In this document: positions 25,235 to 27,572 of the stretch, one piece after another
How the letters are laid out: every line of letters starts with the position of its first letter
Numbering within the stretch: position 1 is the stretch's first letter
From: Weeksellaceae bacterium
GTDB lineage: Bacteria; Bacteroidota; Bacteroidia; Flavobacteriales; Weeksellaceae
Assembly (NCBI GenBank): GCA_019459455.1
Contig: JAIBEX010000009.1
Span: forward strand, 434,001 to 498,000
Direction of reading: 5' to 3'
Length of the DNA stretch: 64,000 nt
Translations under genes and position numbers: made by a program
Notes under the pieces: model-generated
Told to the model about the DNA's origin: nothing
The model's input: only the letters and a program-made list of their open reading frames with translations
Databases searched by the model: none

Positions 25235-25666
25235 TTAGCAGTATGAAATCTTATCTACCCTGTTCTGGTGCCTTCCGCCTTCAAAATCAGTGGTCAGGAA
25301 CCTTTCCACGATATCCAGAGCCAGTTCACTTGCAATAAACCTGGCAGGAAGCGAAATCATGTTGGCATTGTTGTGCTTTCTGGCCAATTCAGCAAGTTCG
25401 GGCATCCAGCAAAGTGCACACCTGATGTCCTGATGTTTATTGGCCGTCATCTGTACCCCGTTGCCGCTTCCGCAAATCAGAATTCCCAGCTCATTTTCGC
25501 CCTTTTCTACGGAAGTTGCCGAGGGATGGACGAAATCGGGATAATCTACCGACTCACCCGAAAAAGTACCGAAATCCTGGATCTCATATTTACTTCCGAA
25601 ATGCTTCTTGATGATTTCCTTATATTCAAAACCTGCATGATCGCAGGCAATAGCTATTTTTTTCAT
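25235..25666 (-). CDS. rpiB: Ribose-5-phosphate isomerase B
   Basis: The 143-residue protein opens MKKIAIACDHAGFEYKE and has the ILICGSGNGVQM active-site loop with Cys and the RCALCWM region, all typical of RpiB/LacAB isomerases. It interconverts ribose-5- and ribulose-5-phosphate in the pentose phosphate pathway. It is the first gene of the leftward cluster, with a promoter box 29 bases upstream. Confidence 0.92.
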   Translation of the reverse strand: MKKIAIACDHAGFEYKEIIKKHFGSKYEIQDFGTFSGESVDYPDFVHPSATSVEKGENELGILICGSGNGVQMTANKHQDIRCALCWMPELAELARKHNNANMISLPARFIASELALDIVERFLTTDFEGGRHQNRVDKISYC

Positions 25667-25695
25667 TTTACTCTTGTTATAACTTACAATTCTTA

Positions 25696-25703
25696 CAAAT
25701 TTA
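25696..25703 (-). promoter_or_regulatory. -7 promoter box (TAAATTTG) of rpiB
   Basis: Perfect TAnnTTTG on the reverse strand, 29 bases before the rpiB ATG, heading the rpiB-rnr-lysE-ldcA-yraN-SDR series. Confidence 0.6.
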
Positions 25704-25775
25704 ACATTATTAATATAAATGGAAATTTTTTACAGCCTAAATCTATTTCAACCTACACTAAATTTACCGGAAAAC

Positions 25776-25865
25776 CTAGCTCCCGCTAGTAATGCAAGCG
25801 GTTACACGCAACAGGACAGGAATCACCAGGAGCAAAAGGAGATATAGCAGACGGCGCTTGCCCAT
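25776..25865 (-). CDS. Possible small hydrophobic peptide (29 aa)
   Basis: I do not recognise this. The frame from ATG at 25865 to TAG encodes a 29-residue peptide: basic start MGKRR, a long hydrophobic stretch LLYLLLLLVIPVLL, then RVTACITSGS. It looks like a lone membrane anchor or signal sequence with a Cys (TAC) at the end of the hydrophobic part. The GC-rich composition here contrasts with the AT-rich flanks and fits coding or structured RNA. The frame is open upstream to a stop near 25930, with a TTG at about 25916 as another possible start. No good promoter box is seen. A non-coding or fortuitous open frame is equally possible. Confidence 0.3.
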   Translation of the reverse strand: MGKRRLLYLLLLLVIPVLLRVTACITSGS

Positions 25866-26350
25866 GCTGGGGCGTGGTTTCGGGGCAATGCGGTAGAGAA
25901 TCGCCCAAACATTCAAAAAACATTGTGAACATCACACCCACACCGTGTTGGTAACTATACAAAACAATTGTTTTCAATATTCACATTAAATTCATAATGC
26001 GATTAGTTTTTGGATTAACGTCGATTTTTTTGAAGAAAGTTTACCGGTGCTTGGCGGTAGGTTTTCCATAATGTGATTACTGATATAGGTCGCCCACAAA
26101 AGTTACTGACATTTGCGGATAACCATAATATACGGTTAACAGTCAACGCATTGTATTGTTACTAAAATGTGATGGCCATGCAGGGTACCTGTTACGAAAA
26201 AAATACCTTTTATTTCTCCACAAACCCTTCGTCTACAACAACACTACTCATTTCTTCTTTTAATAAATAAAGTATAATGTAGATAAGATGAAGCTTTGGG
26301 GATTGTGGAATTTTAACTTCATTTTAATTCTTCATCGTCTGAATTAATCT

Positions 26351-26358
26351 TAAATTTG
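26351..26358 (+). promoter_or_regulatory. -7 promoter box (TAAATTTG) of pgk
   Basis: Perfect TAnnTTTG, 23 bases before the ATG at 26382. Between box and start, AGGGAG (26373-26378) is one of the few Shine-Dalgarno-like sequences in the window. Confidence 0.6.
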
Positions 26359-26381
26359 TAAAACTAAAAACAGGGAGATTT

Positions 26382-27572
26382 ATGAAAACAGTTAACGATT
26401 TTAATTTTAAAGATAAGAAAGCATTGGTAAGAGTGGATTTTAACGTTCCGCAGAGTGCTGATCTGAAAGTTACTGACAATACGCGAATCCAGGCGGTGAA
26501 ACCTACAGTTGAGAAAATACTGAACGATGGGGGTTCGGTGATACTAATGACGCATTTAGGCAGACCTAAAGGAAAGGCATCTGAGGAATTTTCTTTAAAG
26601 AATATTGTTTCGGAAATTGAGGAAGTTTTTGGAAAGAAAGTGATGTTCTGTGCAGACTGCCTGGGAGAAGAAGCTAACCGTATGACGACGGAACTGCAGC
26701 CCGGAAGTATTCTCCTGCTGGAAAACCTGAGATTTTACAACGAGGAAGAGGAAGGGGATACGGCGTTTGCCGAAAAAATTTCAAAATATGCGGATGCCTA
26801 TGTGAACGATGCGTTTGGTACAGCCCACCGTGCGCATGCTTCAACTGCGATTATTGCCCAGTATTTTCCTTCAACTAAATTTTTCGGTTTATTGATGGCA
26901 AAAGAACTTGAAGCGGTTGAGAAAGTTTTGAAAAAAGGGGAGAAGCCTGTTACAGCTATAATTGGAGGATCCAAGGTTTCATCCAAGATTACAATAATAG
27001 AAAATATGCTTCCGGCAATAGATAACCTTATCATTGGTGGAGGAATGGCCTTTACGTTTGTAAAAGCTTTGGGCGGGACCATCGGTAACTCAATTGTCGA
27101 GGAAGACAAGATGGATTTGGCGCTGGATATTCTGGCACGCGCGAAAGCTGGGAATGTCACGGTTTATCTGCCGGTAGATGTTATAGGAGCGGATGAGTTC
27201 AGCAATGATGCGGAGACAAAGGAAATAGATATCTACGAAATACCGGAAGGCTGGATGGGGCTTGATGCCGGACCTAAATCACAAAAACTCTTTCACGATG
27301 TTATTATGAACTCCAGGACGATTCTCTGGAACGGTCCAATCGGGGTCTTCGAAATGCCGAATTTTTCTGCCGGAACGGTTGCGCTTGGCAACAGTATTGC
27401 AGAATCTACAGTATTGGGTGCATTTTCGCTTGTTGGAGGAGGGGACAGTGTTGCTTTCGTAAAACAGTTTGGATATGATGAGAAGGTAAGCTATGTGTCT
27501 ACCGGTGGAGGGGCAATGCTTGAAAGTTTGGAAGGTAAGGAACTGCCGGGAGTGAAAGCCGTCAACAGCTAA
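26382..27572 (+). CDS. pgk: Phosphoglycerate kinase
   Basis: The 396-residue length is standard. The N-terminal VRVDFNVPQ motif (about 17-25), the THLGRPKG segment, and the C-terminal GGGDSVAFV nucleotide loop followed by VSTGGGAMLE are all present. It makes ATP in glycolysis and works in reverse in gluconeogenesis. The gene stands alone, with a promoter box upstream and a strong terminator downstream, as expected for an abundantly expressed housekeeping gene. Confidence 0.97.
   Translation: MKTVNDFNFKDKKALVRVDFNVPQSADLKVTDNTRIQAVKPTVEKILNDGGSVILMTHLGRPKGKASEEFSLKNIVSEIEEVFGKKVMFCADCLGEEANRMTTELQPGSILLLENLRFYNEEEEGDTAFAEKISKYADAYVNDAFGTAHRAHASTAIIAQYFPSTKFFGLLMAKELEAVEKVLKKGEKPVTAIIGGSKVSSKITIIENMLPAIDNLIIGGGMAFTFVKALGGTIGNSIVEEDKMDLALDILARAKAGNVTVYLPVDVIGADEFSNDAETKEIDIYEIPEGWMGLDAGPKSQKLFHDVIMNSRTILWNGPIGVFEMPNFSAGTVALGNSIAESTVLGAFSLVGGGDSVAFVKQFGYDEKVSYVSTGGGAMLESLEGKELPGVKAVNS

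Follow-up and report, generated by a model that had tools for sequence, protein, structure and literature searches.

What kind of sequence forms a GC-rich island of about 135 bases in the AT-rich gap between rpiB and pgk? The gap belongs to the window analysed here, a stretch of 64,000 nucleotides from a Weeksellaceae contig, and is bordered on the left by rpiB (25235-25666, minus strand) and on the right by pgk (26382-27572, plus strand), in a gene order (rnr, rpiB, pgk) common to six relatives (L002-L007). The compositional contrast reported in the initial annotation is borne out by GC counts: 0.563 for the island (25776-25910), against 0.229 in the left flank (25667-25775) and 0.325 in the right flank (25911-26381), that is, 56% against 23% and 33%, with 0.434 for the whole window. 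The hairpin words listed there are present as well (CTAGC at 25776, GCTAG at 25785, CCGCT at 25783 and AGCGG at 25797). GC content is what stands out within the gap; neither the length of the 29-codon leftward frame nor the fold exceeds chance, the predicted RNA structure being no more stable than those of shuffled sequences on the plus strand (z +0.76; 158 of 200 shuffles as stable) or on the minus strand (z -0.80; 39 of 200).

Three explanations had been offered at the outset: a small membrane peptide, a structured RNA, or the leftover of a repeat family. The last of these is supported by alignment, by a covariance model and by a count of retained base pairs, and it is very probable that the island is a decayed copy of Flavo-1, a structured repeat scattered between genes, in its longer version of about 115-155 nt. 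The island would be conspicuous in an AT-rich origin region because the high GC content of the Flavo-1 element has been retained. A puzzling GC-rich island is most likely resolved in this way as a fossil repeat; in itself it is ordinary, and the new points are the extended architecture of the repeat and the probable chromosome origin in which it lies. At the DNA level, searches with the gap and the island turned up no further copy in their own genome (best other E value 0.28), matches in 59 relatives covered pgk-side parts of the gap and in none of them the island, and an Rfam scan of the gap gave weak matches only (STnc180, IS605-orfB-I, ZNRD1-AS1_2), all far below cut-off.

The identification came from the same spot in other genomes. 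A pgk scan of genome contigs yielded 80 named loci, mainly Kaistella and Chryseobacterium, and in three of the Kaistella gaps (K. gelatinilytica L118, K. soli L121, K. pullorum L126) GC content peaks where the window has its island. These three share a motif with K. chaponensis (L116), which in L126 reads GTGAGCGATGGAAGCGG...GGAGTAGTAGCGGACAGC, and the Rfam scan gave Flavo-1 (RF01705) matches at the corresponding place of 29.5 bits in L126, 29.0 in L118 and 25.9 in L121 (cut-off 42 bits), with nothing at E<=1 in L116; a separate Flavo-1 copy in L118 scores 59.4 bits. A search of 36 sister-genus genomes recovered further same-place copies (L235, L240, L244, L250), and three other matches in it are the same gaps as L116, L118 and L121. 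Eight related genomes, four of them named Kaistella, carry the element at the island's place and on its strand, with a length of about 115-155 nt. Its core resembles the Rfam Flavo-1 RNA, sharing with it a helix broken by small symmetric internal loops as well as the dispersed occurrence; it differs in three additions that the 76-position Rfam model lacks: an outer helix, a second arm and a 3' end that recurs (usually ...GCCCAAAA).

Is this longer structure real? Eight related elements were aligned (alignment A1), and a structure was written for them by combining the Rfam core with the minimum-energy folds of L126 and L240, a derivation from members of the same set that leans in its favour. 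Within A1, 8 of 20 pairs are changed on both sides and 93.1% of cells are paired; the covariation score was reached by none of 500 shuffles, while a second measure, the number of further pair types, was not beyond shuffles (135 of 500 reach the same number). The outer helix pairs as GCGTG/CACGC, GCATG/CATGC or GTGTG/CACAC in different elements and the second arm as CCC/GGG; in L243 the words GATTG and CAATC are present, misaligned by one column. The structure rests on covariation, because the minimum-energy folds of the other related elements differ wholly or partly from it and most of these elements are no more stable than shuffles (for example, 193 of 200 shuffles are as stable as L121).

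Copies elsewhere in the genomes extend this result. Among 21 further copies outside the model, drawn from 18 genomes (15 of the sister genus and 3 of the window's genus), 14 of 20 pairs are changed on both sides and 99.0% are paired, against 29-45% in slid controls, in an alignment that was fitted to the R1 model described below and leans in favour to that extent. The consensus of 18 of the 21 ends in GGCGAGGGAATCGCCCAAAA. A restriction of the outer helix and tail to copies at the origin was considered and rejected: the outer helix is paired at 97% of cells in these 21 copies elsewhere. Rfam's 76-position model thus appears truncated, in that the outer helix, the second arm and the recurring 3' end covary or are conserved with the motif. 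Flavo-1 is widespread, and a longer form should help work on its identity. Away from the origin, the extended copies at L287-L304, L306, L310 and L314 have the outer helix and the second arm, and most of them an end like GCCCAAAA.

For the window copy itself (25779-25909, plus strand), alignment, a covariance model and the pair count point to a decayed extended element: an RF01705-like core with outer helix, second arm and ...CGCCCAAA end. The 5' half of the core (25788-25806, plus strand) reads AGTAATGCAAGCGGTTACA, compared with AGTGATGGAAGCGGTTACC in Kaistella soli L121; the 3' half (25837-25855, plus strand) reads AGGAGATATAGCAGACGGC, compared with AGGAGTAGTAGCGGACAGC in Kaistella pullorum L126; and the 3' end (25894-25909, plus strand) reads TAGAGAATCGCCCAAA where the consensus of the other copies is GAGGGAATCGCCCAAA. 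Both core halves are present in the right order and on the right strand, by alignment and by the model, and the alignment to L121 spans nearly the whole length of the island, from AGTAATG (25788) through CGCCCAAA (25909). The summed local alignment score of the island against the eight related elements is 1138, a value that none of 1000 shuffles reached (maximum 1034), and when the window was tiled on both strands with 934 stretches of 137 bases, scored in the same way, the one at 25757 came first with 1026, the next best having 908. Singly, five of the eight elements were matched as well by only 0-9 of 1000 shuffles; the alignments to L244 (74 of 1000 shuffles as good), L235 (363) and L243 (682) are within the shuffle range.

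Covariance-model searches gave a divided answer. The model R1, built from the eight relatives with the window left out, placed its best match in 901 bases searched with filters off at 25780-25899 on the plus strand (10.5 bits, E 0.0061; next best 2.3). Over the whole 64-kb window with default filters the island was not listed, nor was it among the five matches at E<=1 in its own genome. The Rfam Flavo-1 model gave no match to the window copy in a 221-base search, nor at the gathering score in the whole window; that score (42 bits) is also above those of the same-place relatives (25.9-29.5 bits; none for L116). Covariance-model support for the window copy is weak on its own; alignment and position lend good support to homology with Flavo-1. 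The pair count points to decay: the window copy keeps 12 of the 20 pairs of the extended structure, compared with 20 in L121, L118, L126, L240 and L250, 19 in L244 and L235, and 10 in L243, which is itself diverged and misaligned (13 when re-added alone). Its core helices are not all formed, and it differs from known Flavo-1 RNAs in failing the Rfam model and in having lost 8 of 20 pairs. Decay of the copy is supported by this combination of homology along 25788-25909, the same place and strand, and broken helices. Because those 8 pairs are lost, it probably no longer works as Flavo-1 does. The suggestion of a structured RNA survives for the family, whose structure is attested by covariation, and is not supported for the window copy, with its 12 of 20 pairs and a fold like those of shuffles.

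The repeat is abundant in these bacteria. At E<=0.001, R1 finds at least one match in 36 of 36 sister-genus genomes (1-28 each among the matches listed), and at E<=0.01 the Rfam model matches 123 of 148 family genomes and none of 14 control genomes; the window's own genome has six other Flavo-1 copies at E<=0.001, three of them over the cut-off. Copies at the rpiB-pgk gap are rarer: R1 detects one in 7 of the 30 sister-genus gaps examined among the 36 genomes (all of them in the model's own set or identical to a member) and in 4 of the 80 named loci, and none in the gap of the three other genomes of the window's genus. In some genomes without an R1 match there are what look by eye to be remnants (e.g., ACTTCACGCCAAAAAA in L249). 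In at least 9 of the 36 sister-genus genomes (G028, G168, G086, G127, G182, G072, G188, G194, G136) another Flavo-1 copy, oriented as the gap element, is placed about 12-14 kb beyond the rpiB end of the gap; by hand comparison of positions, these copies may correspond to one another. No bias in the orientation of copies relative to replication direction was apparent by eye, uncounted, in two genomes.

The common place, the common strand and the similar flanks would be accounted for by one ancestral copy with repeated loss: the ancestor shared by the Kaistella group and the window's genus probably already had a Flavo-1 element here, flanked by what would have been the promoter of rpiB on one side and the origin's DnaA boxes on the other. 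Another possibility is that separate Flavo-1 elements inserted at one site, as might be suggested by their scattered presence and by the gaps of the three other genomes of the window's genus, where R1 finds nothing. On a quick tree of pgk and rpiB (42 rows; 10 of 39 inner branches with support below 80, and L250 only 26% filled), gap copies occur in L235 with L244, in L240, in L243 and L246 within a group of three, in L126 and L250 within another, and in L232; the window branches with L002 and L004 (support 98), both without an R1 match.

Away from dnaA, the remainder of the gap is a probable chromosome origin, a reading absent from the initial annotation, and the island lies between its DnaA boxes and the promoter of rpiB; judged by alignment, GC skew and DnaA-box counts, the neighbouring 450 bp (25911-26360), partly conserved between relatives, would work as oriC. 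A word scan of the window's gap found three DnaA-box-like words within 173 bases, each with one mismatch and none perfect: TTATCCGCA (26114-26122, minus strand), TTCTCCACA (26214-26222, plus strand) and TTATCTACA (26278-26286, minus strand). In the alignment of seven gaps, a conserved word CTACAACAACA (26233-26243, plus strand; exact in six of the seven sequences, with one change in the seventh) precedes an AT-rich stretch that may be the unwinding region. Of 81 gaps, 23 hold the exact word, its distance from pgk varying little (146-191 bases), and 46 hold CTCAACAACA. The letters of CTACAACAACA do not match the consensus of a textbook DnaA-trio, which makes that reading less likely. The Bacteroidetes -7 promoter motif is TAnnTTTG, and TAAATTTGT occurs on both sides of the island: at 25695-25703 (minus strand) as the probable -7 element of the rpiB promoter, found in six of seven aligned gaps, and at 26351-26359 (plus strand) as that of the pgk promoter, with TAAATTTG in all seven.

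Could the skew and the DnaA-like words have some other cause, such as strand bias of the flanking genes, the gap not being an origin at all? This is unlikely, though parts of the record lean that way. The group's skew is weak and was unevenly sampled; in the window alone its minimum is at 54.9 kb; the window's single perfect DnaA box (42546) is outside the gap; and at up to two mismatches the gap's 500-base bin ties with two other window bins in DnaA-box-like words. Against these points, sampled skew switches sign at the gap in three genomes. On the window's contig (C14; dnaA is on another, C19) 11 of the 13 pieces to the left have negative skew, and 9 of the 10 to the right have positive skew; in G002, 40 unevenly placed pieces put the cumulative minimum in the piece ending at 1638000, with the gap match at 1638045; and in G028, less clearly, the minimum over 20 pieces is in the piece ending at 1439000, with a gap match at 1439002, a value (-2101) nearly equalled at 1.26 Mb (-2081). 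DnaA-box-like words with at most one mismatch number 235 in 81 gaps, at least one in every gap, against 18.35 expected from base shuffles, and at 4.51 per kb they are about 20-fold denser than downstream, from within pgk (0.225 per kb); the 81 gaps are related rather than independent, and eight of the 80 named gaps, longer than 2 kb, were left out.

The rpiB-pgk gap is put forward as a concrete oriC candidate for Kaistella and relatives. It resembles bacterial oriC regions in being intergenic, with a skew switch, a cluster of DnaA-box-like words and an AT-rich stretch, and differs from them in lying between rpiB and pgk rather than beside dnaA and, in the window, in boxes that all have at least one mismatch. 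Within open-licence papers we found no account of an rpiB-pgk origin in this group, and a search of PMC8287927 for Bacteroidetes terms gave none. One single-contig genome (L250; G132:C1 from base 1) is linearised at the start of pgk, adjoining the probable origin. Eight Chryseobacterium loci (L142, L145, L147, L162, L168, L170, L177, L192) have about 1.6 kb of extra DNA between rpiB and pgk, in gaps of 2.2-2.35 kb.

What might such an element be, and does it do anything at the origin? REP and BIME repeats, mobilised by RAYT transposases, are short, GC-rich, structured, intergenic and present in many copies. Flavo-1 seems like them in these respects and seems to differ in fold and length; our best guess is that it belongs with REP-like repeats and is not an mRNA leader, since both probable flanking promoters point away from the window copy, which would leave it out of either mRNA. 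Comparative genomics brought Flavo-1 to light, and a table lists it for Bacteroidetes (PMC2864571); in Flavobacterium psychrophilum its matches fall sense and antisense to transcribed regions alike, many lie outside such regions, and no functional clue emerges (PMC9723704). Within open-licence papers we found no function for the intact element and no description of its extended form.

A more speculative extension, which we regard as unlikely, is that Flavo-1 is a REP-like mobile unit of about 115-155 nt (outer helix, two arms, GCCCAAAA end), one copy of which settled inside the origin of the Kaistella group, where its covarying fold would have been kept in several lineages as an aid to origin activity, the role having been lost, or passed to a changed fold, in the window's lineage. 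Less likely still is that the island today functions at the origin as a structured element, RNA or DNA, its own fold having replaced that of Flavo-1: it might be a site shaping DnaA assembly or a short RNA made at oriC. Copies with covarying helices do occur at the spot in 7 of the 30 sister-genus gaps examined and in K. pullorum L126; on the other hand, R1 matches nothing at the gap in 76 of the 80 named loci (it could have passed over decayed copies), the fold of the window copy is no better than those of shuffles, and at least 9 of 36 genomes have the additional copy about 12-14 kb off on the rpiB side, so that a fixed position is perhaps not specific to the origin.

A decayed Flavo-1 copy remains by far the preferred reading of the island, and the idea that it encodes a small hydrophobic membrane peptide of 29 residues, read leftward, is the least probable of all. 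The ATG frame of 29 codons described in the initial annotation does exist (25776-25865, minus strand; MGKRRLLYLLLLLVIPVLLRVTACITSGS), as the 3' part of a 46-aa TTG-started frame (25776-25916, minus strand), and has a basic start and a hydrophobic core. Its length is unremarkable, since 1036 of 2000 dinucleotide shuffles of 25741-25960 contain an ATG frame of at least 29 codons. Its hydrophobicity is mildly unusual: the 17-residue hydropathy is 2.69, a value of at least 2.2 together with at least 29 codons occurs in 30 of 2000 shuffles, and of the window's 199 ATG frames of 29-60 aa, 6 reach 2.2. A peptide search of 197 family genomes gave no convincing relative, the best match outside the frame's own locus having E 0.033; such matches, at 0.03 or worse, were taken as noise. 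The corresponding minus-strand register is open for 30-98 codons in all eight related elements with their flanks, five of them with an ATG, which might seem to favour a peptide; GC-rich DNA, however, is expected to hold open registers, and the starts, lengths and ends of these frames differ among the elements. Over 17 residues their ATG frames, of 21-65 aa, reach a hydropathy of 0.89-1.43, compared with 2.69 for the window's frame; the hydrophobic core is therefore not shared, and the frame is judged incidental.
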